Assembly (NCBI GenBank): GCA_040754075.1
Contig: JBFMDH010000035.1
Span: forward strand, 1 to 64,000
Reading direction: 5' to 3'
Source: Acidobacteriota bacterium
GTDB lineage: Bacteria > Acidobacteriota > Blastocatellia > UBA7656
DNA: 64,000 nt
Shown here: positions 433 to 61,969 of the stretch, piece by piece
Layout: each line of letters opens with the position of its first letter
How positions within the stretch are numbered: position 1 is the first letter of the stretch
The notes under the pieces: generated by a model
Told to the model about the DNA's origin: nothing
Seen by the model: only the letters and a program-made list of their open reading frames with translations
The model's database searches: none
Program-made: the position numbers and the translations under genes

Positions 433-492
433 AAGTAAAAAGTGAAAAGTAAAACCGAATATCTGATTATTTTTACTTTTCACTTTTTACTT
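433..492. repeat. Heptamer-phased inverted repeat between tRNA-Tyr and tRNA-Gly
   Basis: Two 22-nt arms (433-454 and 471-492) are perfect reverse complements around a 16-nt loop. Each arm consists of tandem 7-nt words (AAGTAAA / AAGTGAA). It is AT-rich, has no T run after it on the minus strand and sits inside a tRNA cluster, so a plain intrinsic terminator is unlikely. It belongs to the set of 7-nt-phased elements found elsewhere in the window. Confidence 0.85.
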
Positions 493-496
493 GCAA

Positions 497-584
497 TGGT
501 GCTGGGGGAAGGATTCGAACCTTCGTAGGGCGTTAGCCCGCCGGGTTTACAGCCCGGTGCCATTAACCACTCGACCACCCCAGC
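497..584 (-). tRNA. tRNA-Tyr(GTA)
   Basis: Type II tRNA on the reverse strand with a long variable arm. Acceptor stem is GCTGGGG/CCCCAGC, anticodon stem CCGGG/CCCGG, anticodon GTA and T arm GTTCGAATC. CCA is encoded at 497-499. It occupies the tyrU position of the classical tRNA-tufB operon. Confidence 0.96.
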
Positions 585-693
585 ATTTTCAACAGCAAGG
601 TTGAGTTTATCTTGCAACCTTCAACCCATCCGTTCATCTGAAGCCCTTTCAAACACACTTCTCTTGGCTTCTGAACGAAAATAAGAAACGGTC

Positions 694-723
694 ATTCTAA
701 ACGAAGATAGGATTTACACGCAA
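694..723 (-). promoter_or_regulatory. Possible sigma70-type promoter of the tRNA-Tyr-Gly-Thr-tuf unit
   Basis: On the reverse strand a -35-like TTGCGT (718-723) and a -10-like TAGAAT (694-699) are 18 bases apart, about 110 bases upstream of tRNA-Tyr. A promoter is expected here because a terminator-like hairpin at 796-830 separates this unit from tRNA-Thr(TGT). Only the match to consensus supports it. Confidence 0.35.
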
Positions 724-795
724 GGCGCTTTTTACATCAATCATCCCTTTGTTTCGAGATGCGTCGCTGAGTGCGCGGATTCCTTATTCTTTAAA

Positions 796-830
796 GATAA
801 AATAAAAAAGCGACCTTAATTAGGGTCGCC
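796..830 (-). terminator. Intrinsic terminator after tRNA-Thr(TGT)
   Basis: Read on the minus strand, a GCGACC/GGTCGC stem (824-829 with 810-815) with an 8-nt loop is followed directly by TTTTTTATTTT. This is a typical rho-independent terminator, 12 bases past the tRNA-Thr(TGT) 3' end. It would stop transcription before tRNA-Tyr. Confidence 0.75.
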
Positions 831-841
831 AGTCTTGATAA

Positions 842-915
842 TGCCGATGGAGGGAGTCGAACCCCCGACATCCTGATTACAAATCAGGCGCTCTGGCCAG
901 CTGAGCTACATCGGC
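842..915 (-). tRNA. tRNA-Thr(TGT)
   Basis: Cloverleaf on the reverse strand: acceptor stem GCCGATG/CATCGGC, anticodon stem CCTGA/TCAGG, anticodon TGT and T arm GGTTCGACTC. CCA is not encoded. It matches thrU, the first gene of the thrU-tyrU-glyT-thrT-tufB cluster. Confidence 0.96.
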
Positions 916-1040
916 GAATGTATTGAAAAACAGCTTTCCAAACAGAAGGTTGATGATACGCATCGCCTTACTGCATTGCAAGCATAAAATAAAATTGCTC
1001 TCTCGCCTTTGACCTACGGCTTTGCTATTATTCGCCACCT

Positions 1041-1970
1041 ATGCGCGGAATCGTTTTGGCGATAGCACAACGGTTATTGATTATCATTCCGGTGATGTGG
1101 GCAGTTGTCACCTTGGTTTTTTTACTCATTCACTTTGTGCCGGGCGATCCTGTCCGCCAACTCGTTGGGGAAAATGCTACCGAAGAACAATATCAAGCCG
1201 TAAAGACCGAACTCGGTTTAGATAAGCCTTTGCTTACCCAATACACCGACTATTGGAAGGGACTCGTTCGCGGCGATTGGGGAACCAATCCGGTGACCAG
1301 AGAACCGGTTCTCAAACGCATCGCTTCGCGTTACCCTTCAACGATTAAACTGGCGATTGCCGCAATGATCATTGCCATCTCAATCGCTATCCCCCTGGGA
1401 GTGACAGCGGCTACGCATAAAGGAAGTGCCATCGATAGTTTTTCAACTTTTCTCGCGCTACTTGGAATTTCGCTTCCCGGCTTTGCCCTGGGTCCCTTAT
1501 TGATGCTGATATTTTCGGTTGAACTCGGACTGATGCCGGTTTCCGGCGCGGGAAGTCTTGCCCATATCATTTTACCTGCGGTAACCATGGGAGCCGCGAT
1601 GTCTGCAATTTTGACGCGCATCGTTCGTTCAAGCGTTCTCGAAGAACTCGGCGAAGATTATGTGCGCACCGCTCGTGCCAAAGGACTACCCGAACGCACA
1701 GTCATCTATAAACACGTGTTGAAGAATGGTTTGATTCCGGTTGTCACAGTTATCGGTCTGCAATTCGGTGTATTGCTTGCCGGCGCAATTATCACCGAAC
1801 GGGTTTTTTCCTGGCCCGGGGTTGGCAGTTTATTGATTGATAGCATCAGCGAGCGCGATTACAAACTCACACAAGGCTGCATTCTGGTGATTGCTTCAAC
1901 CTATGTTTTCGTCAACACGGCAACCGATCTGCTCTACCGGTTCCTTGACCCGCGCATCAAAGTTGATTAA
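1041..1970 (+). CDS. ABC transporter permease, DppB/OppB type
   Basis: A 309-residue inner-membrane permease of a peptide/nickel-type ABC importer. The N-terminal transmembrane helix (about residues 8-30) is followed by the family signature FVPGDPVRQL and an ELGLDKPLLTQY segment. Further helices lie at about 100-125, 135-158, 172-195, 235-258 and 280-300. The EAA-type loop that contacts the ATPase is visible as DYVRTARAKGLPERTVIYKH (about 207-226). Length is normal for DppB. Its DppC-type partner is at 2881-3693, but no substrate-binding protein or ATPase gene lies in the window, so the substrate cannot be named. A methyltransferase gene starts 8 bases after its stop. Confidence 0.92.
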   Translation: MRGIVLAIAQRLLIIIPVMWAVVTLVFLLIHFVPGDPVRQLVGENATEEQYQAVKTELGLDKPLLTQYTDYWKGLVRGDWGTNPVTREPVLKRIASRYPSTIKLAIAAMIIAISIAIPLGVTAATHKGSAIDSFSTFLALLGISLPGFALGPLLMLIFSVELGLMPVSGAGSLAHIILPAVTMGAAMSAILTRIVRSSVLEELGEDYVRTARAKGLPERTVIYKHVLKNGLIPVVTVIGLQFGVLLAGAIITERVFSWPGVGSLLIDSISERDYKLTQGCILVIASTYVFVNTATDLLYRFLDPRIKVD

Positions 1971-1978
1971 TTGGGACT

Positions 1979-2800
1979 ATGGGTTATTTGACCAAAAGTA
2001 AAATCATCCGACCGAAACATCGAAGCATGGCGCTGAATCGTATTTATAAAGGCAATAGTCTGGAACTAATCAACCGTTTGCCGGATGCCTTCATCGATTT
2101 AGTCATTTGTGACGGTCCCTATGGAATCACTGGAAATGATTGGGACAAGATTTCCGATATTCAGTCGTTCAACCTGAATTTAATTCGTCTGTTTTCGCAA
2201 AAATTAAAGCCCGGCGGCGCGCTTTATCTGTTTGGTAAACCCGATTGCATCGATTTTATTGATTATCGCGAGTATTTGAATCTGAATGCGAAACTCGTGT
2301 GGTATCAACCGAGCCGTTTGGCGCAAGGCAAAAAAAATTACACCAATAACTATGACCTGATTTGTTATTTCACCAAAGGAAAAGCGAAAACTTTTAACCT
2401 CGATGACATACGTGTGCCGCAACTGGTTGAACTCGAACATCGCAAACGCTGCGAAAACGTCCCATCAGTTCGGAATGGGCACTATGGCAAAACCAAATTC
2501 AATGCGCGCGGGAAAAATCCCGGTGATGTGTGGGGGGATATTAAACAACTGACTTATAAATCGCACGAATTGGTCAGTCGTGATCTGCTTCATACAATTC
2601 AAAAACCAATGAAACTCATTGAACGCCTGGTTCGCGCCAGCTCCAACGAAAACGAAATTGTCTTAGACCCCTTTTGCGGGGTCGGAACGACTGCCGTCGT
2701 TTGTCAAAAGCTCAGGCGAAATTTTATCGGATTTGAAATGAATCCTGCTTACATTGCGATTGCCAAAAAGCGCATGGTGCAGGCAATTCTGGAAGCTTGA
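1979..2800 (+). CDS. Orphan DNA methyltransferase (N6-adenine/N4-cytosine, beta class)
   Basis: A SAM-dependent DNA amino-methyltransferase. The catalytic motif IV comes first (DGPYGITGNDWD, about residues 45-56) and the SAM-binding motif I comes last (DPFCGVGTTAVVC, about 231-243, followed by RNFIGFEMN). That order defines the beta class (motif IV, target recognition, motif I). Motif IV reads DGPY instead of the usual DPPY. Family members usually begin near the second methionine (MALNRIYKGNSLEL), so translation may start at 2027 rather than 1979; neither site has a strong Shine-Dalgarno. No restriction endonuclease is adjacent. The gene sits between dppB-like and dppC-like genes in the same direction, so it was probably inserted into that operon. 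Recognition sequence unknown. Confidence 0.88.
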   Translation: MGYLTKSKIIRPKHRSMALNRIYKGNSLELINRLPDAFIDLVICDGPYGITGNDWDKISDIQSFNLNLIRLFSQKLKPGGALYLFGKPDCIDFIDYREYLNLNAKLVWYQPSRLAQGKKNYTNNYDLICYFTKGKAKTFNLDDIRVPQLVELEHRKRCENVPSVRNGHYGKTKFNARGKNPGDVWGDIKQLTYKSHELVSRDLLHTIQKPMKLIERLVRASSNENEIVLDPFCGVGTTAVVCQKLRRNFIGFEMNPAYIAIAKKRMVQAILEA

Positions 2801-2880
2801 TTTTTTTTTGGCGTTTATAAAAGTTATTACAAAATCGTTGTTTCAATTATCAACTGAAATCATGAAAAGAAATTCAGGAC

Positions 2881-3693
2881 ATGAATAAAGTCGCAAAATT
2901 CGGATTGGTAGTAATTATTGTTTTTGTTTTGATGGCGGCGCTTTCGCCGCTCATTGCTTCATGGGAAAAAGTTCAACAGCAGGATTTGATTGCAAGGCTC
3001 GAATCACCTGACGCCACACACTGGATGGGGCGCGACCAGTTGGGGCGCGATGTGATGACGCGAATCATTTATGGGGCGCGCGTTTCCATGCTGGTCGGAT
3101 TATCCGTGGTGACGATTTCATCGATTATCGGCGTCCTCATCGGTTCATTCGCCGGTTATAAAGGCGGTTGGACTGATCGGCTGATTTCCAGTTTTTTATT
3201 CAATGTCTTTTTATCGTTTCCGGGCATTTTGCTAGCCATCGCGATGGTCGCGTTTTTAGGGCCAAGCGTGCGCAATTTGATTTTTGCGCTGTCGATTATC
3301 GGTTGGGTCGGATATGCGCGGCTGATTCGCGCGCAGGTTTTGAAAGTCCGTGAATACGATTTCGTTACCGCTGCGCGGGCGCTCGGCGCAAGCGATTTCA
3401 GAATTTTACTCAAACACATTTTGCCCAATTCGATTCAACCGCTGATTGTGCAGGCGTCGCTTGGCATGGCGGGTGCGATACTGTCTGAAGCGGGGATGAG
3501 TTTTTTAGGATTGGGAGTTCCCGAACCGATTCCTTCGTGGGGCAAAATGATTGATGATTCGCGCGAGTTCTGGTTCACCGCGCCACACCTGTTTATCTTT
3601 CCGGGACTGATGATTGCGCTCGCCGTTCTGGCATTTAATTTTTTAGGCGATGGACTGCGCGAACGCCTGGACCCGCGCCAACGACCGCGCTAA
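2881..3693 (+). CDS. ABC transporter permease, DppC/OppC type
   Basis: A 270-residue permease that pairs with the DppB-type protein upstream. One N-terminal helix (about residues 7-27) is followed by the DppC signature HWMGRDQLGRDVMTRIIYGAR (split here: HWMGRDQLGRD, VMTRIIYGAR) and SMLVGLSVV. The ATPase-contact loop appears as DFVTAARALGASDFRILLKH (about 160-179), then the SEAGMSFLGLGV helix typical of the family. The C-terminus RERLDPRQRPR is characteristic. It is separated from dppB by the methyltransferase gene and an 80-base gap, so the two permease genes are probably still co-transcribed. Confidence 0.92.
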   Translation: MNKVAKFGLVVIIVFVLMAALSPLIASWEKVQQQDLIARLESPDATHWMGRDQLGRDVMTRIIYGARVSMLVGLSVVTISSIIGVLIGSFAGYKGGWTDRLISSFLFNVFLSFPGILLAIAMVAFLGPSVRNLIFALSIIGWVGYARLIRAQVLKVREYDFVTAARALGASDFRILLKHILPNSIQPLIVQASLGMAGAILSEAGMSFLGLGVPEPIPSWGKMIDDSREFWFTAPHLFIFPGLMIALAVLAFNFLGDGLRERLDPRQRPR

Positions 3694-3697
3694 AGAA

Positions 3698-3725
3698 GGT
3701 AAAAGCAAAAAGGCAAAAGTAAAAA
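3698..3725. repeat. Single-armed heptamer-phased repeat
   Basis: Four consecutive 7-nt A-rich words (GGTAAAA, GCAAAAA, GGCAAAA, GTAAAAA) start 4 bases after the dppC-like stop codon. No inverted partner was found nearby, unlike the other loci. Low complexity makes this the weakest member of the set. Confidence 0.45.
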
Positions 3726-3796
3726 AGCGGTAGATTAGAAATTAACCTCTTCCGTGTTGCCGCCGGTCTTCGGATAATGAAACAATTCGATTCAAG

Positions 3797-4138
3797 ATGT
3801 CCGAGCCAAAAGATTATGCCAGGCTGCAATATATTTATGTGACGACCACTGGTCGTAAAAGCGGCTTGCCACGTGAAATCGAAATCTGGTTTGTCGAACG
3901 GGCAGGGAAGTTCTACATTCTCGCCGAACATTTTTTCAAAGCCAACTGGGTGCAAAACATTCAACAAAATCCCTGCATTCACCTTCGATTCGCCAAAGAT
4001 GAATTTCCAGCGACTGCGCGAGTGCTTGATGAAACCCGTGATGCTGAAACCTGGCAAGCGGTGCAACGACTTTCACGAGAGAAGTATGGCTGGGGCGAAG
4101 GTTTGCCGGTGGAAATCAGCCTTGATGAGGGATGGTAA
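3797..4138 (+). CDS. Deazaflavin-dependent nitroreductase (DDN/DUF385) family protein
   Basis: A 113-residue split-barrel flavoprotein-like protein. The signature TTTGRKSGLPREIEIWF (about residues 16-32) and the following YILAEHFFKANWVQNI are typical of the DDN family, whose known members bind the deazaflavin F420 and reduce quinones or nitro compounds. It is a little shorter than the mycobacterial proteins. No membrane segment is seen. Its last 23 bases overlap the 3' end of the convergent ExbB-like gene. A second F420-type split-barrel gene lies at 5216. Cofactor use is inferred from family, not shown. Confidence 0.8.
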   Translation: MSEPKDYARLQYIYVTTTGRKSGLPREIEIWFVERAGKFYILAEHFFKANWVQNIQQNPCIHLRFAKDEFPATARVLDETRDAETWQAVQRLSREKYGWGEGLPVEISLDEGW

Positions 4139-4997
4139 AGAACGTGGTCTGGTGAATCAGTTTCGGTTCTGACTCGGTTGTCGAATTGAGGCATCTCTCT
4201 TCTTGAATTGCGCTGACGGTTTGCCTGGAGACGTTAGTGAGCATTAGGCGATTAAGAATTTCTCTTGAGGAATAATCAACTTCGTTCAATATGCGAGATG
4301 CTTTTTTCGATAACCTTTTATAAAACCCAAGTGCTCCCCCTCCGATTACCGAAGAATATAAAGCAATGTTGGGAATTTCATAAATCCAAGGCATTGGTGA
4401 GAAATAGTATTCATCATTTGAATTAACCGCCAACAGCGCAGTGTATAAACACACAATGGTTCCGACTAAACCGGCACATAAACTCATTATCCCGATATTT
4501 TTCAGTGCCTTTAATCTGCTTTTTAATTCGATTTCGCTTTGCGTCAAGGCATACTCGTAGGCAACTGCATAAAAATCGTTTTCTTCGGCTTGGGTTGCAC
4601 AAATATTTTGCTTGGTTCGTATAACCTCATAAGTCGAAGTAGCAAGGGGATGAGTTTTATAGCGTTGTGAAATTTTAATTGCCTCTGCGATTTGACTGGT
4701 GGTTAAAGCGAGTAGGATTCTGCGCGTGAACAATTTTAAATTTTTTTGTATGGATGAAAACGACAACTGTCTCTCGATAATGAGACCAACTGATGCAAAA
4801 AATAATATCCACAGTGAGAAATACAATAGCGCCAGGAACGCATCATTGTCCCATAGTGGGCGGTAATATTCATAAGATTCAAGAGGACAAGCCTGTACGA
4901 CTATTGCCTTCGACTCATTGATTAAAGGGAGCGCAATGAGTAAGAACCAAGCGAATATCATATCGTTTGTAAGTGACGAATTTCTGGTTGATCGCAT
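4116..4997 (-). CDS. Divergent MotA/TolQ/ExbB-like membrane protein
   Basis: A 293-residue membrane protein. The chosen ATG at 4997 has AAGGAG 6 bases upstream; a longer reading to 5039 lacks this. Transmembrane segments lie at about residues 15-32, 57-77, 172-195 and 212-232. The layout resembles the ExbB/TolQ channel family: one helix, a long cytoplasmic stretch, then two helices beginning LKNIGIMSLCAGLVGTIVCL and ALYSSVIGGGALGFY. The GLVGTI and ALYSSVIGGG steps match the conserved pore helices. No ExbD/TolR partner is adjacent. Sequence match to the family is weak, so a different four-helix membrane protein remains possible. The 3' end overlaps the convergent gene by 23 bases. Confidence 0.55.
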   Translation of the reverse strand: MRSTRNSSLTNDMIFAWFLLIALPLINESKAIVVQACPLESYEYYRPLWDNDAFLALLYFSLWILFFASVGLIIERQLSFSSIQKNLKLFTRRILLALTTSQIAEAIKISQRYKTHPLATSTYEVIRTKQNICATQAEENDFYAVAYEYALTQSEIELKSRLKALKNIGIMSLCAGLVGTIVCLYTALLAVNSNDEYYFSPMPWIYEIPNIALYSSVIGGGALGFYKRLSKKASRILNEVDYSSREILNRLMLTNVSRQTVSAIQEERCLNSTTESEPKLIHQTTFFTIPHQG

Positions 4998-5215
4998 AGA
5001 GAACTCCTTAATCCATTCCTGCTTGCCAGAAAGCCTCAATGCTTAGCGCAAGTAGCCAGAGAGTTAGTGATGGTGAATTATTGAAGGAATATTCGGCGCT
5101 GCATCTTTAGACACTCTCAGTTCTGAAAAAGTTCCCCATCTGCGGCTTCACAAATCGCAAGCGAGAGTTTTAAATTAAACGAGAAACATCAAATTGAACA
5201 AAAGGAGAAAATTTT

Positions 5216-5614
5216 ATGACATCGGCGATACCGGAAAAATATCTTGACCTGTTTGATAAGAAAGCTTTTGCGAGTTTAGCGACGATTTTGCCCAATGGCG
5301 CGCCGCAAGTGACTCCCGTATGGGTTGATTTCGACGGCACCCACGTCATTGTGAATTCGGCTCGCGGTCGGCAAAAAGATCGCAATATGAAACAAAACGC
5401 TGCCGTCGCGCTTTCGATTCTCGACCCGGAAAACCCCTACCGCTACCTGGAAGTTCGCGGTCACGTCAGCGAAATCACCGAAGAGGGAGCCGACGCGCAC
5501 ATTGATAAAATGGCGAAAAAATATATGGGATTGGATACCTACCCGTATCGAAGCGCCAATGAAGTGCGGGTGATGTACAAAATCACGCCTGAACATTTCA
5601 CCCATATGGGCTAA
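5216..5614 (+). CDS. PPOX-class F420-dependent oxidoreductase (split-barrel) family protein
   Basis: A 132-residue pyridoxamine-phosphate-oxidase-like split barrel. The start is fixed by AAAGGAG 8 bases upstream of ATG. The N-terminal SLATILPNGAPQVTPVWVDF and the VNSARGRQKDRNMKQN segment are hallmarks of the Rv1155-type group, whose members bind F420 or FMN. The C-terminus (YRYLEVRGHVSEI, then YPYRSANEVRVMYKI) completes the barrel. Reaction and substrate cannot be deduced. An inverted repeat that may act as terminator follows at 5638-5679. Confidence 0.82.
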   Translation: MTSAIPEKYLDLFDKKAFASLATILPNGAPQVTPVWVDFDGTHVIVNSARGRQKDRNMKQNAAVALSILDPENPYRYLEVRGHVSEITEEGADAHIDKMAKKYMGLDTYPYRSANEVRVMYKITPEHFTHMG

Positions 5615-5637
5615 GCGATTTAATGGGGATGTCAAAA

Positions 5638-5679
5638 TGATGAAGGTTGAAAGCGTCTCTATCTTTTCAACCTTCATCA
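5638..5679. repeat. 15-bp inverted repeat downstream of the PPOX gene
   Basis: Arms 5638-5652 and 5665-5679 are perfect reverse complements (TGATGAAGGTTGAAA) with a 12-nt loop. The arms show 7-nt spacing of TGAAGGT/TGAAAGC, so the repeat may be a short member of the heptamer-phased set. It is followed by only a mixed A/T tract, but it could still end transcription between two convergent genes. Confidence 0.65.
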
Positions 5680-5715
5680 AGAAAAATATTCTAAACGAGA
5701 GTAAAAACTTATGCC

Positions 5716-15346: not shown

Positions 15347-16573
15347 ATGGCTACCATTCATGCCTTTCGCGCTCAACGTCCCTTGCCAGCCAAAGCCGCA
15401 GCAGTTTCCGCAGTCCCTTATGACGTCGTCAACACTCAGGAAGCGCGCGCGCTTGCCGAAGGCAATCCGCTCAGTTTTTTAAGAGTCTCGCGACCTGAAC
15501 TCGAACTTGCGGACGACACCAATCCTTACGCAGATGAAGTGTACGCGCGCGCCGCCGCCAATTTCGAGAAATTGAAACTTGCTGCGCCGCTCGTCGTTGA
15601 AGAGACCCCAAGCCTTTACGTTTACACTTTGCAGATGGGCAAACAGATTCAAACCGGCATCGCCGCCTGCGCTTCAGTTGATGAATACGACACCGACATC
15701 GTTCGTAAACACGAACGCACCCGCAAAGACAAAGAAGATGACCGCACGCGCCACATCGTCACCTTGCGCGCGCAAACCGGGCCCGTGTTTATGACCTATC
15801 GCGGGCGCGATGAAATCAATCAACTCGTCAATGACACCAAAGCGGGCGAGCCGCTTTATGATTTCACCGCCGCAGATGGCATCAAACACACCATTTGGCG
15901 CATGAGCGATGAAGCAACCGCGAAAACCAGCGAAGCCTTTAAAGCGGTGCCGCTTTTTTACATCGCTGATGGACACCATCGCGCCGCCAGCGCCAGTCGC
16001 GCACGCGCCGCGCTTAAAGCCGAAAACCTCAATCACACGGGCGACGAAGAGTACAACTTTTTTCTCACCGTGCTTTTCCCCTCAGACCAACTGCACATCA
16101 TGCCTTATAACCGTCTGGTGAAAGATTTGAACGGAATGAGCGAAGGCGATTTTCTTGATGCGCTGTTAAAAGAGTTTGTGCAGGTCGAAGTCGGTTCCCC
16201 CACCCCCCCGCACAAAGGCGAAATTTCGATGTACATTGGCGGGCGCTGGATAACTTTAAAAGCGCAACACGTTGATGCCACCGACCCGATTCGCTCACTC
16301 GATGTGAGTGTCTTGCAGGAAAAAATTCTTGACCCGTTGCTTGGTATCAAAGACATTCGCACAGACAAACGCATTGATTTCGTCGGCGGCATTCGCGGCA
16401 CTCAAGCTTTGGAACAAGCGGTTAATAGCGGACAGGCGGCAGTGGCATTTTCAATGTATCCGGTATCGCTCGATGAACTGATTGCGGTATCGGACGCCAA
16501 TCAAATCATGCCGCCAAAATCGACCTGGTTTGAACCCAAGCTCAGGGACGGGTTGCTCAGTCATTTGATTTAG
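15347..16573 (+). CDS. DUF1015 family protein
   Basis: A 408-residue cytoplasmic protein with AGGGAG upstream of ATG. The family is recognised by the start IHAFRAQRP...VSAVPYDVVNTQEARALAEGN and by the invariant LFYIADGHHRAASASR (about 203-218). No transmembrane or signal segment is present. Biochemical function of the family is not established. DUF1015 genes are frequently neighbours of serA and serC, as here, so a role linked to the phosphorylated serine pathway is plausible but inferred. A four-helix-bundle cassette separates it from serA. Length is typical. Confidence 0.85.
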   Translation: MATIHAFRAQRPLPAKAAAVSAVPYDVVNTQEARALAEGNPLSFLRVSRPELELADDTNPYADEVYARAAANFEKLKLAAPLVVEETPSLYVYTLQMGKQIQTGIAACASVDEYDTDIVRKHERTRKDKEDDRTRHIVTLRAQTGPVFMTYRGRDEINQLVNDTKAGEPLYDFTAADGIKHTIWRMSDEATAKTSEAFKAVPLFYIADGHHRAASASRARAALKAENLNHTGDEEYNFFLTVLFPSDQLHIMPYNRLVKDLNGMSEGDFLDALLKEFVQVEVGSPTPPHKGEISMYIGGRWITLKAQHVDATDPIRSLDVSVLQEKILDPLLGIKDIRTDKRIDFVGGIRGTQALEQAVNSGQAAVAFSMYPVSLDELIAVSDANQIMPPKSTWFEPKLRDGLLSHLI

Positions 16574-16580
16574 GATTCTG

Positions 16581-17064
16581 TACTTTGTGCTTTGTACTTT
16601 GTGCTTTGTACTTTGCAATTGAAGTTGGGAGGTTAAGTGGAAAAAACGAATTTTGAAAAATTACAGATTTATCAACTATCCGAACAACTTTGTGATGATG
16701 TTTGGAAGATGGTTGTTAAATGGGATGCATTTGCTAAAGATACTGTTGGGAAACAGCTTGTTCGATGTGTTGATAGCATCGGCGCAAATATTGCCGAAGG
16801 AACCGGACGCGGTGTGGCGACAAAAGATAACCAAAGGTTTGCCAGAATTGCCAGAGGCTCTCTGTACGAAACCCGACACTGGTTACGACGTGCGTACAAT
16901 CGAAAATTATTAGGGATGGAGCAAGTCAATAAAATTAAACCGATATTAGATGAACTGACGCCCAAACTTAATGCATATTTGCGTTCAATAGGTAGCACTC
17001 AAAAGTCTTAAGAATGTAGAACCCAAAATACGAAGCACAAAGTACAAAGTACAAAGCACAAATT
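16581..17064. repeat. Heptamer-phased inverted arms enclosing a four-helix-bundle gene (cassette)
   Basis: The left arm (16581-16615) is five tandem 7-nt words alternating TACTTTG and TGCTTTG. The right arm (17030-17064) is five words in the opposite orientation built from ACAAAGT and ACAAAGC variants. The arms enclose exactly one gene (16637-17011), starting 22 bases before its start codon and 19 bases after its stop. The whole 484-bp unit lies between DUF1015 and serA. It looks like an insertion with palindromic, 7-nt-phased ends. No target-site duplication could be defined by eye. Confidence 0.8.
16637..17011 (+). CDS. Four-helix-bundle protein (23S rRNA intervening-sequence / S23 family)
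   Basis: A 124-residue all-alpha protein with a GTG start and GGGAGG 6 bases upstream. The pattern FEKLQIYQLSEQLCDDVW, then VGKQLVRCVDSIGANIAEGTGRG (about 36-58) and FARIARGSLYETRHWLRRAY matches the family first found inside intervening sequences of 23S rRNA genes; the same fold is used by the bAvd accessory protein of diversity-generating retroelements. The SIGANIAEGTGR stretch is the family hallmark. No reverse transcriptase or variable repeat is nearby, so a retroelement role is not supported. Molecular function is unknown. Both sides carry inverted 7-nt-phased repeats, suggesting the gene travels or is maintained with them. Confidence 0.88.
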   Translation: MEKTNFEKLQIYQLSEQLCDDVWKMVVKWDAFAKDTVGKQLVRCVDSIGANIAEGTGRGVATKDNQRFARIARGSLYETRHWLRRAYNRKLLGMEQVNKIKPILDELTPKLNAYLRSIGSTQKS

Positions 17065-17076: not shown

Positions 17077-18276
17077 ATGAAAATTTTAATCGCAGATAAA
17101 TTTGAACAAAGCGGAATTGAGGCGCTGAAACAGGCGGATTTTGAAATCGCTTATGAACCCGATGCCAAAGATGATGCTTTACTGAAAGCGATTGCCGATA
17201 GCGGCGCAGATGTTTTAGTAGTTCGTTCAACGGTTGTCACTGGCGCGATGCTTGAAGCCGGACGTTTGAGCTTAGTAGTTCGCGCTGGCGCTGGCTACAA
17301 CAACATTGACGTCAAGACAGCATCGGCACGCGGCATCTATGTCGCCAACTGTCCAGGCAAAAATTCCATAGCGGTTGCCGAACTCGCCTTCGGTTTGCTT
17401 CTCGCGCTCGACCGTCATATCGTGCAAAACGCCGTCGATTTGCAAAACGGCATATGGAACAAAAAGACCTATAGCAAAGCTCGCGGTATTTACGGCGCAA
17501 CCCTTGGACTGATTGGCACAGGCAAAATCGGGCAGGAGATGATTAAACGGGCGCGGGCTTTCGGAATGCCGGTGGTGGCATGGAGTCGTTCGCTCACCGA
17601 TGAAACCGCCGAAGCTTTAGGGATTGAGCGCAAAGCGACACCTTTGGAAGTCGCGGCGGTTGCCGACATCGTCAGCGTTCACGTCGCGCTCAAAGATGAA
17701 ACCCGCAATCTGCTGAACGAAGCGTTTTTTAATGCTATGAAACCCGGTGCCTGTTTCATCAATACGGCGCGCGCCGAAGTGGTTGACCAGGAGGCTTTGG
17801 AAAAAGCTTTGAATGAAAAAAATATTTTCGCCGGACTCGATGTTTTTAAAGGCGAACCCACTGGCGGCACCGGCACGGTTGAAGACCCGATTTTCAAACA
17901 CAAAAACGTCATTGGCACGCATCACATCGGCGCGTCAACCGATCAGGCGCAACAAGCAATCGCCGATGAAACCGCGCGTATCATTCGCGAGTATCGCGAT
18001 AACGGGCGCGCGCCGAACGTGGTGAATCTCGCGAAAAAATCACCGGCTACGCATATGCTGGTGGTGCGCCATTTTGACCGTGTTGGCGTGCTTGCGGGCG
18101 TTTTCGATAGACTCAAAGAAGCGGGCATCAATGTGCAGGAGACCGAGAATATCGTTTTTGATGGAGCCGTTGCTGCTGTTGCCCGCATCCACCTTGATCA
18201 AAGCGCCGGTGAAGCGACTTTGAATTCAATTCAAGCCGACGAAAATATTATCGAAGTCAGTTTGTTGAATTTGTAG
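17077..18276 (+). CDS. serA: D-3-phosphoglycerate dehydrogenase with ACT domain
   Basis: First enzyme of serine biosynthesis, oxidising 3-phosphoglycerate with NAD. The 399-residue protein has the NAD-binding loop LGLIGTGKIGQEM (about 145-157). The catalytic arginine is in NTARAEVVDQ, the glutamate in FKGEP and the histidine in HHIGAS, all in the expected order. A C-terminal ACT domain (about 325-399, HFDRVGVLAGVFDRLKEAGI) suggests feedback control by an amino acid, as in related dehydrogenases. serC follows at 18447. The upstream 60 bases include the right arm of the heptamer cassette, which therefore lies in the serA leader. Confidence 0.93.
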   Translation: MKILIADKFEQSGIEALKQADFEIAYEPDAKDDALLKAIADSGADVLVVRSTVVTGAMLEAGRLSLVVRAGAGYNNIDVKTASARGIYVANCPGKNSIAVAELAFGLLLALDRHIVQNAVDLQNGIWNKKTYSKARGIYGATLGLIGTGKIGQEMIKRARAFGMPVVAWSRSLTDETAEALGIERKATPLEVAAVADIVSVHVALKDETRNLLNEAFFNAMKPGACFINTARAEVVDQEALEKALNEKNIFAGLDVFKGEPTGGTGTVEDPIFKHKNVIGTHHIGASTDQAQQAIADETARIIREYRDNGRAPNVVNLAKKSPATHMLVVRHFDRVGVLAGVFDRLKEAGINVQETENIVFDGAVAAVARIHLDQSAGEATLNSIQADENIIEVSLLNL

Positions 18277-56349: not shown

Positions 56350-56540
56350 CAACGCCTCCTGAATTTTTAATGATGACGACGGTGAAGTTGTTGGGAAAAT
56401 TCTGCTCGTAAAACTCCGACCAATACTCACACGACAAAAGTCGGTTTGCAACTTGTAAGCAGATAAATCATGAAATTCCGGCAGGCGATTTTCTGCAAAA
56501 TGAAAATCCTTTTAATTTCATTTTACCCATTTGTTTAAGA

Positions 56541-56697
56541 ACAATGGCATGAAGTTAAGCGGCACGGAGGTAACGCAGGTTGTCTAACCTGCGTCAGTCT
56601 TGGTCGAAGACCCCTTGAAATTTCGAGGACGGACTTTTCTAAATCGGCGCAGACTCGACCGTCGGCGCTACCGTTTTCCTTAACTTCATGCCATTGT
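56541..56697. mobile_element. MITE-like non-coding element with 19-bp terminal inverted repeats
   Basis: The left end ACAATGGCATGAAGTTAAG (56541-56559) and right end (56679-56697) are exact reverse complements and bound ~157 bp without a gene. The interior has a nested hairpin (ACGCAGGTTGTCTAACCTGCGT type, about 56573-56594) and a GC-richer tract. It sits alone in the 403-base gap between the PEP-mutase and monooxygenase genes. A clear target duplication was not seen. No transposase with matching ends is in the window. The remainder of the gap (56350-56540, 56698-56752) shows nothing recognisable. Confidence 0.6.
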
Positions 56698-56752
56698 CTT
56701 TTCAAGGCAGAGAGCAAATGCTCAAAGCTACATCCTGAGCGGTTCGCCGGAG

Positions 56753-57574
56753 TTATTCGTTGAACATGGCGCTCAGGTCTTTGTAACTCACCGCCTCATC
56801 AGCAAACGTAAATGTCCCGTGGGTTCGCATTTCTTCAGCCGCGCGTAAAAAAGCGCCAAATGCCGCGCGCGACAGGGCGCTTCCCACACTGATGCGTTTG
56901 ACGCCGATTTCTGAAAGTTCTGCAAGCGAGAGTTGCACGCCCTGCAATCCCATCACTACATTCACCGGGCGATCAACTGAACTGACCACCGAAACAATAT
57001 CGGCTTTGCTCTTTAGTCCCGGCGCGTACAACACCTCGGCACCTGCCTCTTGATAAGCTTGGAGTCGCCGTATGGTGTCGTTGATGTCCGGGCGACCGAC
57101 GAGATAATTTTCGGCGCGCGCCGTTAAAGTGAACGTGAAAGGAAGCGCGCGTGCCGCTTCAGATGCGGCTCGTACACGCTCAACCGCAAATGCAAAATCA
57201 TAGATGGGTTGATTGGCATCCTTGCTCATATCTTCGATGGAACAGCCGACCAATCCGGTTGCGGCAGCCAGCCTGACGGTTTCGGCAATCGCATCAGGCG
57301 CGTCTGCGAAACCGTTTTCGAGATCGGCGCTTACCGGCAAATCCGTCGCCTCGGCGATTTCTTTGGTATGCATCAACATCTGGTCACGGTCGATGGTGTT
57401 GTCTCGCTGACCGCGTGAAAAGGCGTAACCGGCGCTGGTGGTTGCCAATGCTGCAAATCCCAGATGCGCCAGTATTCGCGCGGTTCCAATGTCCCAGGGA
57501 TTGGGAATAATAAACGCTTGAGGGCGTTGGTGAAGTTGGCGAAAGTGGTCGCCTTTTTCAGTTTGCGTCAACAT
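56753..57574 (-). CDS. Isocitrate lyase / PEP mutase superfamily protein
   Basis: A 273-residue TIM-barrel enzyme of the PEP mutase/isocitrate lyase group. ATG at 57574 has GAGG upstream. Conserved segments: IIPNPWDIGTARIL (about 22-35), TTSAGYAFSRGQRD (about 45-58), LPVSADLENGFAD (about 79-91, with the Mg-binding D and E), VGCSIEDMS (about 108-116), and TARAENYL (about 149-156). This is the oxaloacetate-decarboxylase / carboxyvinyl-phosphonate-like branch that cleaves or rearranges C-C or P-C bonds of 2-oxo acids. The usual lyase cysteine motif KKCGH is absent, so isocitrate lyase activity is unlikely. Confidence 0.87.
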   Translation of the reverse strand: MLTQTEKGDHFRQLHQRPQAFIIPNPWDIGTARILAHLGFAALATTSAGYAFSRGQRDNTIDRDQMLMHTKEIAEATDLPVSADLENGFADAPDAIAETVRLAAATGLVGCSIEDMSKDANQPIYDFAFAVERVRAASEAARALPFTFTLTARAENYLVGRPDINDTIRRLQAYQEAGAEVLYAPGLKSKADIVSVVSSVDRPVNVVMGLQGVQLSLAELSEIGVKRISVGSALSRAAFGAFLRAAEEMRTHGTFTFADEAVSYKDLSAMFNE

Positions 57575-57687
57575 GTTGAACCTCATCAAATCAGCTTGAA
57601 TATATGGGTCGGTAGTTTAGCATAAATTTTTTGCCTGCGAGTCCGCACGGTATTTTTATAAAAGAATGGTTTGTAAAACCACTTGAG

Positions 57688-57716
57688 GTTGAAAAAGCGG
57701 TCTATAGCGGCGTGCA
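57688..57716. repeat. Degenerate REP-like hairpin copy
   Basis: GTTGAAAAAGCGGTC followed by TATAGCGGCGTGC resembles the REP-like core but with a changed right arm. It lies in the 208-base gap between the cupin and PEP-mutase genes. Confidence 0.4.
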
Positions 57717-57782
57717 ATATCTGGTCATCGTCGGTTTGCGGTTGTGCCGCTTTGATGTGCGGAACGTCCCTGACCAACCGCT

Positions 57783-58232
57783 TTAACTTCTGGTCAGGCG
57801 CAAAATGCTTTCTTCATGTTGGGGAAATTGTTGAACCAGGGTTTCACGCTTTGCGATGGAAAATTCTGCAAAAGAAAATGGCGGCGCACAAATGTTAGTG
57901 CCGAACGCGAATTCGACCCCTGCGGGAATTTCCGCCGCCTGCCAGACGCCTTTTGCAACCGTCACCACAGGGCGCTCGCCATTATTAAAATCCATACCGA
58001 GGCGAAATATTTTGTGCTGACCAGGCGGTTCCAGAATATGAATCAACAGTCGCCCGCTATGAATTGCCCAAATCTCTTCATTATTTTCTACGCGATGAAA
58101 AGCTGAAAAACTTTGCGGCAAAAACAGCCAGTGACCCACCGTGCGGTAAGTGTCGCGATGCGTCTCGACAAATTTCGGACCATCGGGGTGATCGAACCAA
58201 TCATAGGAAGTCAAAATTTTATTCAACATCAT
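57783..58232 (-). CDS. Cupin (DUF985-type) protein
   Basis: A 149-residue single-domain cupin. ATG at 58232 has AGAGGT upstream; a longer frame to 58286 would overlap the upstream gene. The family pattern PQSFSAFHRVENNEEIWAIHSGRLLIHIL (split: PQSFSAFHRVENNEE, IWAIHSGRLLIHIL; about 43-71) shows the usual H-x-(n)-E-x-W-x-x-H metal-type residues. GVWQAAEIP and FGTNICAPPFSFAEF finish the barrel. DUF985 proteins bind sugars or sugar-nucleotide-like ligands in some structures, but a reaction is not known. It is 50 bases downstream of the ornithine-cyclodeaminase-family gene, likely one operon. Confidence 0.8.
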   Translation of the reverse strand: MMLNKILTSYDWFDHPDGPKFVETHRDTYRTVGHWLFLPQSFSAFHRVENNEEIWAIHSGRLLIHILEPPGQHKIFRLGMDFNNGERPVVTVAKGVWQAAEIPAGVEFAFGTNICAPPFSFAEFSIAKRETLVQQFPQHEESILRLTRS

Positions 58233-58282
58233 GCACCTCTTGGATTGAATTGTTTGTCGGTAACCAATTCTAACGGCGCTTT

Positions 58283-59263
58283 TCAAAAAGTGATTCGCGT
58301 GCCGATGCCCTTAATCTGAGCTTTCTCATAAGCCAGTTGCGCGGTGACCAAATCTTCGATTGCCAAGCCGCACGATTTAAACAGGGTGATTTCATTTGCG
58401 GACGCGCGACCGCGAATTTTACCGGCGACGACTTCGGCGAGTGTGCCTTGGATATGAGTTGGGTTGATTGCGCCTTCGGCAATCGGAATCAATAAATCAC
58501 CGGCTTCCGCGCCTGCGGCGGTGTGCGCATCAATGATAACCCGCGCGCGTTTGACCGCCAGGCTATCGAGTTCGCGCATCCTGGGCGTGAACGCGCCGAT
58601 GGCATTGATATGACAACCGGCTTGCAATAAACGACCCTCAAAGAGCGGCTCGCTTGAATTCGTGCAGGTGCAAATTAAATCGCTACTCTCGGCGACTTCA
58701 TCGGCGCTCATTACATCGCAGGGAATCCGGTAAGCGGCTTCAACAAACTCTGCAAGTCGCTCAGCTTTTTCAATGGTGCGCGACGCAATGAAGATTTTTT
58801 CGATGCTTGCGACTTCGACCATCGCTTCGATATGAAAACGCGCCTGCACGCCTGCGCCAAAAACTCCCAGAGTTTTTTTGCCCTCGCTCATCATTAACCT
58901 GGTCGCCAGTGCAGAAGCCGCAGCCGTGCGCATGGCGGTGATGAATTTGCCTTCCATCAACGCCAGCGGTTTTCCGGTTTCCCCATCAAGCAACAGATAA
59001 AGCCCCTGCACGATGTCCAGATTTTTCGCGACATTTGCCGGAAAGACCGAAACGATTTTGGTGCCAAGCAGAGTTTGTGAGGCGCTTTCAATCCGCGAAG
59101 GCATCTCCAAAAGCACAGCATTTTGTGAAGGAATCGCCAGGTTCAAGCGTTCCGGCGCCAAGGCTTCGCCTTGAAACAGGCTCTGGAAGCCGGTTTCAAC
59201 CGCTTCGATGACTTCGCGTATCGTAAGAATTTGTTTGAGGTCGGCTTCTGATAGGATGAGCAT
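58283..59263 (-). CDS. Ornithine cyclodeaminase / mu-crystallin family protein
   Basis: A 326-residue NAD(P)-dependent enzyme of the ornithine cyclodeaminase family, which also contains alanine and other imino-acid dehydrogenases. The Rossmann loop is LGVFGAGVQARFHIEAM (about 132-148). Upstream lie GKFITAMRTAAASALATRLM (about 105-124), a core family region including the substrate Arg. The catalytic Asp region is visible as ARVIIDAH. The GCHINAIGAFTPRMREL segment is typical. ATG is directly preceded by a 7-nt-phased repeat (59264-59298), so no normal Shine-Dalgarno lies before it. Substrate not determinable. Confidence 0.88.
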   Translation of the reverse strand: MLILSEADLKQILTIREVIEAVETGFQSLFQGEALAPERLNLAIPSQNAVLLEMPSRIESASQTLLGTKIVSVFPANVAKNLDIVQGLYLLLDGETGKPLALMEGKFITAMRTAAASALATRLMMSEGKKTLGVFGAGVQARFHIEAMVEVASIEKIFIASRTIEKAERLAEFVEAAYRIPCDVMSADEVAESSDLICTCTNSSEPLFEGRLLQAGCHINAIGAFTPRMRELDSLAVKRARVIIDAHTAAGAEAGDLLIPIAEGAINPTHIQGTLAEVVAGKIRGRASANEITLFKSCGLAIEDLVTAQLAYEKAQIKGIGTRITF

Positions 59264-59573
59264 AGTCAGGATTCAGGATATAGGATTCAGGATTCAGGGA
59301 AAAGTCATCAGGTGAATTTCGCAAGTGTTGAGCAGGATTTCTTTATCAGATAGGTGAGGTGTTCGCCTTCTGATAAAAAGCAATCGAAACTGCCATCTTC
59401 GCGCGCGATGAACCCGTCAACCGTACACGCGACATAATAGATAAGTTTTCGCATGAGTTGCCCTCAATATCCGTGGGTGTATTTAAGGAATTGATTTGAC
59501 CAAATTACACTTGGATGTGAATTCCCTGAGTCCTGAATTCTGTATCCTAGCTCCTGAATCCTGTATCCTGACT
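59264..59573. repeat. Heptamer-phased inverted arms enclosing a gene remnant (cassette)
   Basis: The left arm 59264-59298 is five 7-nt words (AGTCAGG, ATTCAGG three times, ATATAGG). The right arm 59525-59573 is seven words in the opposite orientation (CCTGAAT, CCTGTAT, CCTGACT and variants). The arms abut the ATG of the ornithine-cyclodeaminase-family gene on one side and the stop of the response-regulator gene on the other. They enclose a frameshifted remnant at 59308-59452. Same word family as the element at 61838-61969. Confidence 0.8.
59308..59452 (-). pseudogene. Remnant of a dihydrofolate-reductase/RibD-C family gene
   Basis: On the reverse strand ATG at 59452 begins MRKLIYYVACTVDGFIAR, the usual N-terminus of the RibD-C/DHFR-like (YyaP-type) family. 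The expected continuation EDGSFDCFLSEGEHL is present but in a different frame, because two bases are missing near 59400. Downstream of LTYLIKK the family match stops, at a TGA at 59308-59310. About 48 codons remain of the usual ~180. It is therefore a frameshifted, truncated copy. It lies between inverted 7-nt-phased arms. Confidence 0.75.
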
Positions 59574-60417
59574 ATTCCTGCGCCGGGTCGATGTATTTCA
59601 CGAAAATCAGTTCGTTATGCTTTTCGTTGTAGAGGAGTTCGTCGATGGTTTGCGAGGCGAGCATGATGCCGAAACCGCCCGGACGCATACCTTTTGCCAG
59701 ACGTTTTTCCATGTGTTGAAAGGGATTGTCATCGGGATTGGTGATTGCCGCGTGTTCGAGTTCTTCGAGCTTGAAGCCTTCGCCGGGGTCTTGGATGGAA
59801 TATAAAATGGCGCGTTTTAATTTGATGTATTTGACTTTGACCTGTTTGGTGGGGTCGAGTTTGCCGCCGTGTTCGATGGCATTATTGAGCATTTCGCGAA
59901 ACACCGAACCAATCGCATCGCGGGTCTCTTTCGGCAAATCATCATGCATGCCGGATAAAACTTTTTGAATCGGTTCAACCGCATTCAAATCACAGGGCAC
60001 GCGCAGTTCAATCCAATCGGGTTTGGCGGAGATGACTTCGATGTTAGTGACCACCGCGCGTTCCATCGCGCATTTGACGGAATCGCTCAATTCTTCAAGC
60101 TCGAACGGTTTGGTTAAAAAATCGCAGACCTGATTGCGCAACGCGGCAATAATGGCATTCGGGGTTCGCTGACTGGTCATCACAATCGCGCGCATATTCG
60201 GTTGCACATCGCGCGCGCAGGCGAGCAACGCCATCCCATCCAAGCCATCCATCACTACGTCGGTCAACAACACATCTACCGGTTCATGCTCAATCACTTT
60301 CAGCGCATCGTTGCCATTGGCGACTTCAATGACTTCGTAGCCTTGCGCTTCAAGAAAGGTGGAGTAGATGGTTCGGCTTGTGGCGTCGTCTTCAGCGATT
60401 AGAACCTTACCAGGCAT
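59572..60417 (-). CDS. Response regulator fused to a serine-kinase-type (RsbW-like) ATPase
   Basis: A 281-residue signalling protein; ATG at 60417 has AGGGG upstream. The receiver domain (about 1-120) has VLIAEDDATS, the phospho-Asp in DVLLTDVVMDG and Lys in FLTKPFELEE. The C-terminal part (about 140-280) is a HATPase of the RsbW/anti-sigma type: REMLNNAIEHGGK (N-box) and DPGEGFKLEE (G1-type), followed by RPGGFGIMLA. It lacks a histidine-kinase phosphoacceptor. Such fusions usually control a sigma or anti-anti-sigma partner in response to phosphorylation. No partner is adjacent. Confidence 0.88.
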   Translation of the reverse strand: MPGKVLIAEDDATSRTIYSTFLEAQGYEVIEVANGNDALKVIEHEPVDVLLTDVVMDGLDGMALLACARDVQPNMRAIVMTSQRTPNAIIAALRNQVCDFLTKPFELEELSDSVKCAMERAVVTNIEVISAKPDWIELRVPCDLNAVEPIQKVLSGMHDDLPKETRDAIGSVFREMLNNAIEHGGKLDPTKQVKVKYIKLKRAILYSIQDPGEGFKLEELEHAAITNPDDNPFQHMEKRLAKGMRPGGFGIMLASQTIDELLYNEKHNELIFVKYIDPAQE

Positions 60418-60568
60418 AATTAAGTTCCCCTGCATAGCACAATGAAGTATTTACCGTTGTCCGAAAGTTATCATGCGATAAATCATAGTTTCAACCGGAT
60501 GCTTGAATTTCAATCGCTCAACATCTTAATATGCCTGCTTGTTTATCAATAGCGTGATAAGTAATGAA

Positions 60569-60704
60569 GTGATGAGTGATGAGTGATGAGTTATGAGTTA
60601 TGAGTTATGAGTGATGAGTTAGAACGATGAACTGTTGGAAAACGATGGATTGTTCTGCTCATTATTCATATTTTCAAATCTCTGTCACTCATTACTCATC
60701 ACTT
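60569..60704. repeat. Heptamer-phased repeat with partial inverted arm, upstream of the phosphotransferase
   Basis: Seven consecutive 7-nt words GTGATGA/GTTATGA (60569-60617) are followed, after ~67 bases, by an inverted arm of about 20 bases (60685-60704: TCACTCA, TTACTCA, TCACTT). The spacer contains AACGATGA words. The element ends 18 bases before the TTG start of the next gene and provides most of its leader. Confidence 0.8.
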
Positions 60705-60721
60705 CCGTGAGGGAGAAAATC

Positions 60722-61834
60722 TTGAGCCACATTGCCGATAAAGATACTGCGCCCATCCGACAGGGCGAAGAGTTAAATAATCAGGCGTTGGAAAATTATT
60801 TGCGCGAACATTTGCCACAGGCATTAACCGGCGAGACCTTTGACGCAGATGCAGGGCTAAGCGTTCAACAATTTCCCGGCGGGCATTCCAATTTAACTTA
60901 CTGGGTGAGCATGTTCGGACGCGAATTCGTTTTGCGCCGCCCGCCGTTTGGTCCGGTCGCGCCGACTGCGCACGATATGCCGCGCGAATACCGCTTGCTT
61001 GCCGCCATCAATCCGCATTTCAACCTCGCGCCGAAACCTTATCTGCTTTGCGAAGACACCGCGATTCTCGGTGTGCCGTTTTATTTGATGGAGCGCCGCG
61101 CCGGATTGGTCATTCGCCGCGATTTGCCTGATGAATTGCACGGGCAACCGGTTGCGCTTCGCCAAATCAGCGAAGCGATGATTCAAACGATGGCGCGATT
61201 GCACGCGGTTGATATTTATGCGACGGGACTGGTGAATATCGGTAAACCCGTTGGCTTTGTCACACGACAAGTGAAAGGTTGGACGGAACGCTGGCATCGC
61301 GCCAAGACCAAAGAGATTCCCGAAATCGATGCGGTTGTCGAATGGTTGCTCGATAAATTGCCGCCCGAACCAGACCCCGAAGCGGGACGACCGGCGACCC
61401 TCGTGCATAACGATTTGAAATTGGACAACGTGATGCTCGACCCCGAAGACGTTTCCAAAGTCGTCGCGGTTTTGGATTGGGAAATGTGTACGGTCGGCGA
61501 CCCGCTCATTGATTTAGGCATCCTGCTTTGTTACTGGGCAGAGCGCGACGACCCGGAAGACCGCCGCGAAGCCATCAGCCCGGTCACCGTTCAAGAGGGC
61601 TGGATGACCCGCGCCGAAATCACCGAGCTTTACGCCAAACTCACCGGGCGCGATGTGTCGCGCATCGCTTTTTATGAAATCTTCGCGATATTCAAAATCG
61701 CAGTGGTCGTTCAACAAATCTATTTTCGTTATGTGCGCGGGCAAACCCACGATGAACGATTCGCGGCATTCGGCCCGCGCATCGAAGGACTTGCGAGAGC
61801 CGCGCTTGAACTGACCAAACAATCGAAACTTTAA
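60722..61834 (+). CDS. Phosphotransferase family (APH-like) protein, TTG start
   Basis: A 370-residue kinase-fold protein of the aminoglycoside-phosphotransferase superfamily, in the branch often linked to acyl-CoA dehydrogenases (choline-kinase-like). Start is TTG at 60722 with GGGAG 7 bases upstream; no ATG lies nearby and the upstream frame is repeat DNA. Motifs: [13 protein letters not shown] (nucleotide loop, about 46-58), RRPPFGP, the catalytic [12 protein letters not shown] (about 233-244) and the metal-binding [11 protein letters not shown] (about 253-263). Natural substrate unknown; antibiotic resistance should not be assumed. Confidence 0.87.
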
Positions 61835-61837
61835 ATA

Positions 61838-61969
61838 AGGATTCAGGATTCAGGGTAACGATGAAGGCGGAACGATGAACGATGAACAAAAAGAATTTCA
61901 CCTTGTTCATCGTTCATCGTTCCTACTTCATACTTTCCTTTTCCTGACTCCTGAATCCTGTATCCTAAT
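61838..61969. repeat. Nested heptamer-phased palindrome between phosphotransferase and phosphatase-fold genes
   Basis: The outer arms are AGGATTC words (61838-61855) and CCTGAAT-type words (61943-61963). Inside are AACGATG words (61857-61884) and their complement TTCATCG (61906-61919). The whole 132-bp spacer is thus a two-level palindrome with 7-nt phase. Outer words are the same as in the 59264-59573 cassette. It reaches to 3 bases before the next ATG. Confidence 0.8.

Follow-up and report, generated by a model that had tools for sequence, protein, structure and literature searches.

Palindromes of tandem words around S23 genes: probable ends and satellites of a very small mobile element

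An S23 gene between inverted word arrays

The subject of this study is a class of intergenic palindromes built from tandem 7-nt words in a 64,000-nt stretch of DNA from an Acidobacteriota bacterium (GenBank assembly GCA_040754075.1, contig JBFMDH010000035.1, positions 1 to 64,000), called the window throughout. At one locus (D in Table 1) two such arms enclose a gene for an S23 protein. Its product matches PF05635 (23S_rRNA_IVP; E 6.1e-26) and TIGR02436 (four helix bundle protein; E 4.4e-25) with 91.2 and 88 bits, respectively, above the curated cut-offs of 33.8 and 24. The open frame is located within terminal inverted repeats, and the element lies not inside a 23S rRNA gene but between a DUF1015 gene (15347–16573, E 3.5e-103) and a 2-hydroxyacid dehydrogenase gene (17077–18276). 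Probably the heptamer palindromes are either the ends of a very small, selfish mobile element with an S23 gene or offshoots of it, which accompany it as satellites. The case for a mobile element is strong; word recognition and the copying steps we infer from sequence.

Seven loci of this kind had been listed in the original prediction. All seven are present in outline, and six of them have an inverted partner, as had been stated, the sole exception being the single array of locus B. Locus C is not heptameric and turned out to be a plain 15-bp hairpin. Overall, this observation is partly confirmed.

The count of tandem segments covered 464 kb, made up of the window and 20 further stretches of the genome; 12 of these stretches had been chosen for holding hits. 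A segment was scored as paired when an inverted partner lay at most 600 nt away. At period 7 there were 75 segments, 51 of them paired, followed by period 8 (24 segments, nine paired) and period 9 (23 segments, four paired, one of these a GCGGAT repeat that is excluded from the class). No paired segment occurred in the 464 kb at periods 5, 6, 10, 11 and 12. One first-order shuffled copy yielded six segments of period 7, none of them paired, and no pairing at any other period. Therefore, the word-palindrome design is real for periods 7, 8 and 9. Inverted pairing is indeed commonest at period 7, but the phase is not constant as had been claimed, since 8- and 9-nt words of the same design exist in the same genome. 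The 15-mer GTGATGAGTGATGAG has 46 matches in the genome and its reversed control 0. The palindromes are unevenly distributed and the window is a rich patch, because the eight stretches not chosen for hits (160 kb) contain one palindrome. In all 40 palindromes found in this genome, G outnumbers C in the 5' arm.

S23 genes and their arms across genomes

The genome contains 13 PF05635 genes. By eye, 12 of these are located between inverted tandem-word arms, each with a different word; in the flanks of the remaining one (L011) no arms are visible by eye. Within the same class of bacteria PF05635 is present in 40 out of 58 genomes, this one included. S23 loci were sampled from the same-class relatives, represented by their best-scoring matches, and, across many phyla, from named genomes, of which the best 80 of 587 were taken. 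The sample comprised 202 loci entered, 201 with an S23 match and 196 distinct. For L013, which the S23 profile missed, the arms were found by eye and the word was entered by hand into the satellite test described below.

Of the 196 distinct S23 genes, 175 have flanks with an inverted-repeat score of 14 or more, compared with 2.6% of mispaired flanks. The best period among these 175 was 7 (142 loci), 8 (23), 9 (nine) or 11 (one). With periodicity included (inverted-repeat score of at least 13, period 7–9, periodic score of at least 18), 171 of the 196 loci passed. When 407 non-overlapping open frames of 95–180 codons from the 20 own stretches were held against the same criterion, three passed, all of them S23 genes. 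The arms have a mode of four words and a median of 4.4, and 254 out of 324 consist of 3–6 words, with a maximum of 47; hence the arms of 35 or 49 nt described in the original prediction are not typical. A complete element measures about 450–530 bp in the cases read. G exceeds C in the 5' arm at 157 of the 171 loci (ten opposite, four equal). Furthermore, the S23 genes are under purifying selection, with a median dN/dS of 0.08 for 12 usable pairs of 78.

Such arrays might also be passive repeats, produced by slippage, with palindromes arising by strand switching at the replication fork and S23 genes as tolerant passengers. The highly variable length of the arrays would agree with this, as would the weak mirroring of word order between the arms (69 of 136 loci exceed the shuffle mean, t=2.9). 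On the same figures we rejected fold-back copying of one arm; the stronger mirroring among the own palindromes (18 of 22) is biased, since there the arms were chosen by alignment. What passive repeats leave unexplained is why arms flank 171 of 196 S23 genes when none of the 404 other small open frames has them, and likewise the correlation of word and protein; the copies of whole units ending in arms also count against them. We consider this explanation very improbable.

S23 genes were also found in 33 plasmid records, none of which is from Xanthomonas. Ten were read, all cyanobacterial and two of them representing one orthologous locus, and all ten have 7-nt inverted arms. This supports in kind the link to the short tandem heptamers (STRR sequences) of cyanobacteria which had been suggested before. 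At two others of the ten, on plasmids of Anabaena sp. 90 (L378) and Pseudanabaena (L384), the S23 gene is located between cas6 and cas4 together with its own 7-nt inverted arms. Therefore, the place of S23 in cas operons may reflect insertion and not a CRISPR function, and some caution is advisable wherever S23 is found beside cas genes.

Many element ends are close to genes: 155 out of 342 lie within -15 to +10 nt of the stop codon of an open frame of at least 100 codons, a count which may be inflated by words that contain stop triplets. Selection of the words for closing reading frames was considered and rejected, as 80 of the 171 words contain a stop triplet when read on the inward strand and 75 are expected from shuffled letters.

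Copies, occupied and empty sites

Two copies in genome G003 (L077 and L080) are 95% identical over 447 bp, with ends in the outermost words and unrelated flanks. Another pair, in G053 (L105 and L214), is 84% identical over 534 bp, the similarity extending about 20 nt beyond the left arm. The arms are the termini of the element, and the copies indicate, as far as sequence comparison can tell, that arms and S23 gene move as a unit.

The presence of the elements is polymorphic. The spacer between the DUF1015 and the dehydrogenase gene, which harbours the S23 element here, holds a gene-less GGTTACT palindrome in the relative G001. G005 has a GxxExxY gene there with its own, different repeats, G002 and G004 by eye have no more than 26 nt, and G003 has unrelated sequence; G006, with about 1.7 kb between the matches, was left out of this comparison. 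The GTGATGA palindrome of locus F was not seen in the orthologous spacer of G001. At locus G the inner palindrome is present in G001 and the outer ATTCAGG arms are absent, and locus E, which has other neighbouring genes in G001 than in the window, is uninformative.

Two sites were compared in the genus g11; one of the comparisons covered eight of nine orthologous loci, as G012 had no right-hand match. Site one is filled in G036 but not in G028 or G050, and G047 carries two words there. In its place G043 has a ParE_toxin frame, G057 a DUF2442 frame (G012 looks alike by eye), G032 a nucleotidyltransferase-like frame that scores just below the Pfam cut-off, and G024 other sequence. At site two G047 carries an S23 element and G032 a one-armed array. 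G036, G043 and G057 have a pair of genes there that by eye looks like a toxin-antitoxin module, and in G028, G024, G039 and G050 the spacer is short. At these sites (L020 and L017) S23 elements in one species thus face toxin-antitoxin-like modules in its sisters. It is as if small selfish modules shared neutral intergenic slots.

The toxin-antitoxin-like modules in the same spacers and the tight spacing of element ends to gene ends would also fit regulatory or addiction-like modules, with the arms as S23 operators and the satellites as regulatory sites of the host. However, presence and absence within one genus, and words that differ from one own S23 copy to the next, are unlike conserved regulation, and we attach very little probability to this possibility.

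The original prediction had proposed a distinct class of elements with gene-bearing inverted arms. This is supported, and strengthened by the whole-unit copies and by presence and absence. A comparison of orthologous spacers for clean insertion boundaries had been suggested as a check; presence and absence was seen there, while clean boundaries with target duplications were not found. Altogether, that interpretation is partly supported. A common substring of at least 5 nt was found at the ends of 7.7% of 169 S23 loci against 4.1% of mispaired ends, in a test that took its edges from the arm alignment and that very short duplications may escape. In this the elements differ from miniature inverted-repeat and other derivatives of DDE transposons, as no target-site duplications were found beside their terminal inverted repeats.

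Single-strand transposition is expected to proceed without target duplications. The arms might then be termini for a Y1/HUH transposase of the host, REP-associated or IS200-like, with S23 as an accessory or repressor of its own element. Y1_Tnp genes are present in 12 out of 12 genomes tested, with 5–18 per genome, and REPINs are the nearest known palindromic satellites. Y1 genes were, however, also detected in five out of 14 control genomes, and across the 12 genomes Y1 counts show no relation to S23 counts (r=-0.05). All in all, this alternative appears unlikely, although it deserves some weight.

Word and protein change together

Among the 171 loci, S23 identity correlates with word similarity (Mantel r=0.24, 0 of 1000 permutations) and with equality of the period (r=0.22, 0 of 1000 permutations); 42 pairs with homologous outer flanks were excluded from both tests. 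The mean word similarity is about 0.47 at low S23 identity and rises to 0.68–0.72 above 60%. On an S23 tree (FastTree) 13 changes of period are required, compared with 200 shuffles in which the mean was 30.6 and the lowest count 26. Word and S23 gene travel together.

The 139 seven-nt words have a purine-G step in common, with G in 92% and A or G before it in 96%. This anchor amounts to 3.5 bits, compared with 2.6 when positions are shuffled, and the other positions vary. Each element family has its own word, which consists of the nearly constant purine-G step and variable bases, and a period that tends to follow the S23 clade.

Gene-less palindromes

From the 40 own palindromes five S23 loci were set aside and four were removed by a GCGGAT filter, so that 31 were tested. 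In 29 of the 31 the word is closer to a resident S23 word than to the mean of equal-sized foreign sets, and 19 of these 29 lie beyond all 500 foreign sets. The four removed by the filter are two real ATTGCGG palindromes, which count as misses (29 out of 33), and two GCGGAT arrays, which were taken as coding repeats (29 out of 35 if counted in). Grouped by word by eye, nine out of 11 words match a resident S23. The gene-less palindromes mostly use a resident word.

The word ATTCAGG of palindrome E has no match among the 12 own S23 words. In the relative G005 an S23 gene with ATTCAGG exists (L111, contig C678), with an array of several hundred nt on one side of the gene. G005 has 308 matches to positions 58900–63000 of the window and, among the matches listed, most are to the ATTCAGG arms.

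Stretches of ten S23-negative genomes (357 kb) contained no 7-nt palindrome, compared with eight in 400 kb of ten S23-positive ones, where they occur in three of the ten. That the satellites are internal deletions of one unit was considered and rejected, as the interiors in this genome are unrelated.

As a side observation, L044 (contig C14 of this genome, G000; about 1–1000) contains a retron-like reverse transcriptase gene (by eye). In front of it lie two stretches that resemble each other, a 9-nt palindrome of the AGTCTNGCN type, and a GTGATGA-type palindrome which stops just short of the likely start of the gene.

A second family with GxxExxY genes

GxxExxY (PF13366) elements, with a gene for a PDDEXK nuclease-like protein, form a second family with the same layout, mostly with 8–11-nt words. 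Here, 26 out of 30 loci have an arm score of at least 14, compared with 13% of mispaired flanks, a high background which is due to their words resembling each other. The S23-negative genome G011 has seven palindromes in 40 kb, and all have 9–10-nt words that agree with the arms of the only PF13366 gene detected in it. The word ATAACGGAACAAACG gave 522 and 509 matches in this genome (1,031 in total) and its reversed control none. Hits are often paired 70 nt apart, many as 85-bp hairpins. The copies that were read have common outer ends (AAGAGAG/CTCTCTT), and several a common loop. In view of these shared ends and loops and of the number of hits, the palindromes of this type look like true copies in high number.

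A possible mechanism

A complete element consists of a left word array, mostly of 3–6 words, one S23 gene and the same array inverted. The S23 oligomer might bind the word array of its own family, perhaps with one word per subunit, and could act in trans on any palindrome that has its word, which would give rise to gene-less intergenic satellites. Copying would occur at the DNA level, with the cutting, joining or replication step borrowed from the host or from other elements, because we know of no catalytic domain in S23, several S23-rich genomes have no detected reverse transcriptase, and target duplications were not found. A ring that binds spaced triplets is known in TRAP and may serve as an analogy for S23 on word arrays. 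The solved S23 relatives 2gsc (XCC0516) and 2rld have five chains each. XCC0516 of Xanthomonas campestris is an S23 protein; a title that appears in reference lists describes it as an assembly of five four-helix bundles. We also considered whether the arms have five words in keeping with five subunits, and rejected this, as their mode is at four.

Alternatively, the element could act as RNA, with the arms forming a double-stranded stem like that of the rRNA intervening sequences which RNase III cuts, S23 binding RNA, and spread by way of reverse transcription. S23 genes are known from intervening sequences of 23S rRNA with terminal stems, and in Coxiella heptamers precede the open reading frame, according to passages in PMC4990558; S23 also resembles Avd of diversity-generating retroelements, as a passage in PMC10053308 puts it. 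Nevertheless, arm mismatches on the S23 sense strand are as often of the G-U type (202) as of the A-C type (202), so no selection for RNA pairing is visible and the idea of RNA pairing is not supported. RVT_1 was undetected in five of the 12 genomes tested (G001, G032, G036, G039 and G047, which are drafts), although each has 5–17 S23 copies; a reverse transcriptase is therefore unlikely to be needed. The own genome has two RVT_1 genes, one of the group II intron type and one retron-like (by eye). Neither is located beside an S23 gene, and the reverse transcriptase was discarded as a candidate partner, the two genes not being tied to S23. We regard spread at the RNA level as improbable.

Several points weigh against a mobile S23 element with satellites. 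Twenty-five of the 196 S23 loci fail the arm criterion. The correlation of protein and word is compatible with co-descent of the unit and is no proof of recognition, and nothing in the data demands one word per subunit, since the arms have no mode at five words. Four of the 33 satellites (ATTCAGG twice, ATTGCGG twice) have no resident S23 of the same word, two of the 29 that match are only weakly nearer (P 0.18 and 0.12), and many of the 29 are GTGATGA, a word used to pick the stretches. The interiors of satellites in this genome are mutually non-homologous, unlike the G011 copies; hence S23 satellites are not demonstrably copies of one another. The S23-negative and S23-positive genomes mostly belong to different genera, the 40 kb sampled were free of palindromes in seven of the ten positive ones, and the interior is long enough for an S23 gene in two of the eight palindromes. 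Finally, a scan at periods 8–13 gave two A/T-rich hits in G033, where neither S23 nor PF13366 was detected.

A wider claim, to which we would give somewhat less than even chances, is that a new class of transposable elements exists across bacteria and archaea. In these, an oligomer without a catalytic domain of its own would be programmed by clade-specific residues to one word, the ends would be arrays of that word, and both would change together. Heptamer repeats elsewhere, in cyanobacteria, Xanthomonas and others, would then be satellites, and the S23 genes in cas loci and rRNA would be insertions.

Comparison with known systems

In the REPIN/RAYT system a resident gene for a REP-associated tyrosine transposase is accompanied by a family of palindromic intergenic satellites. 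The likeness lies in palindromic intergenic satellites that match a resident gene (29 out of 33 here; G011 in case of GxxExxY). In contrast, the gene between the arms is S23 or GxxExxY (PDDEXK_3) and not Y1, and the arms are arrays of family-specific words of 7–11 nt.

The intervening sequences of 23S rRNA in Coxiella and Leptospira have likewise an S23 gene inside inverted terminal repeats. In Coxiella, tandem GACAGAT heptamers are located upstream of the S23 reading frame, and older proposals that intervening sequences are remnants of mobile elements are repeated in the same source (PMC4990558, in part). The present elements differ in being located in spacers of protein genes, in having word arrays on both sides, and in gene-less satellites that share the word.

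Tandem 7-nt units in intergenic DNA are also found in Xanthomonas, Nostoc and Calothrix. The intergenic heptamers GGGAATC and GGGGATT of Xanthomonas and Nostoc form 70 and 75 convergent inverted pairs in Xanthomonas and few in Nostoc; in the passages concerned they are tied to no gene and generally not found with mobile elements (PMC4692102). TAACTGA repeats of Beggiatoaceae, cyanobacteria and Bacteroidetes are abundant, intergenic and sporadic. They differ in that the main genome has 169 direct sets and one indirect set, and they were proposed as sites of a translation regulator (both from passages of PMC4679880).

Avd of diversity-generating retroelements is a four-helix-bundle protein similar to S23, and S23 was the commonest family in a search for immunity linked to such retroelements (PMC10053308, in part). 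Here, no reverse transcriptase lies beside the own S23 genes, and none was detected in five of 12 S23-bearing genomes. S23 genes are, furthermore, listed in cas loci in a passage of PMC3936711.

No publication on tandem-word palindromes tied to S23 or GxxExxY genes was found in searches of the open-licence PMC literature, several of which used broad terms and covered the top-ranked matches. The connection is real and general and, as far as we can see, undescribed. It offers one explanation for the nature of intergenic heptamer repeats, for scattered S23 genes outside rRNA and for S23 in cas loci. Moreover, it would constitute a testable system of master and satellites without a known transposase gene of its own. 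Hundreds of natural pairs of protein and word could allow a recognition code to be derived, and if the wider claim above holds, the specificity for the word could be readable from the S23 sequence.

Further features of the window

Coordinates are compiled in Table 1. Tandem Repeats Finder reports period 7 at 16579–16615, 17024–17062, 59266–59298, 59525–59571, 60554–60619 and 61857–61887 and, with a minimum score of 40, nothing at loci A and C. Membership of hairpin C in the element class is doubtful.

Table 1. Word arrays, palindromes and the S23 gene of the window
Locus	Feature	Position	Strand	Description
A	Palindrome	433–492		Arms 433–454/471–492, 22 of 22 nt complementary; words AAGTAAA/AAGTGAA (by eye)
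B	One-armed word array	3696–3725	+	Without inverted partner; Tandem Repeats Finder period 14
C	Hairpin	5638–5679		Arms 5638–5652/5665–5679, 15 nt perfect; not a tandem-word array
D	Left arm of S23 element	16579–16615	+	Tandem TACTTTG/TGCTTTG words, 5.3 copies
D	S23 gene	16637–17011	+	GTG start, 124 aa; matches PF05635 and TIGR02436; putative word-recognising protein
D	Right arm of S23 element	17024–17060	-	Inverted word array; arms 89% complementary
E	Palindrome	59267–59563		ATTCAGG arms 59267–59298/59532–59563, 88%; inner 233 nt
F	Palindrome	60566–60705		GTGATGA arms 60566–60586/60685–60705, 95%; left array to about 60622; inner AACGATG words
G	Nested palindromes	61838–61966		Outer ATTCAGG words 61838–61854 and 61942–61966
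G	Inner palindrome	about 61861–61889 and 61903–61931		CGATGAA words

The interior of palindrome E contains an open frame of 48 aa (59308–59454, minus strand) that has no Pfam match and by eye resembles the start of a reductase. Palindrome A takes up most of the spacer between the genes for tRNA-Gly and tRNA-Tyr (426–496), and may therefore be transcribed and processed together with these tRNAs.

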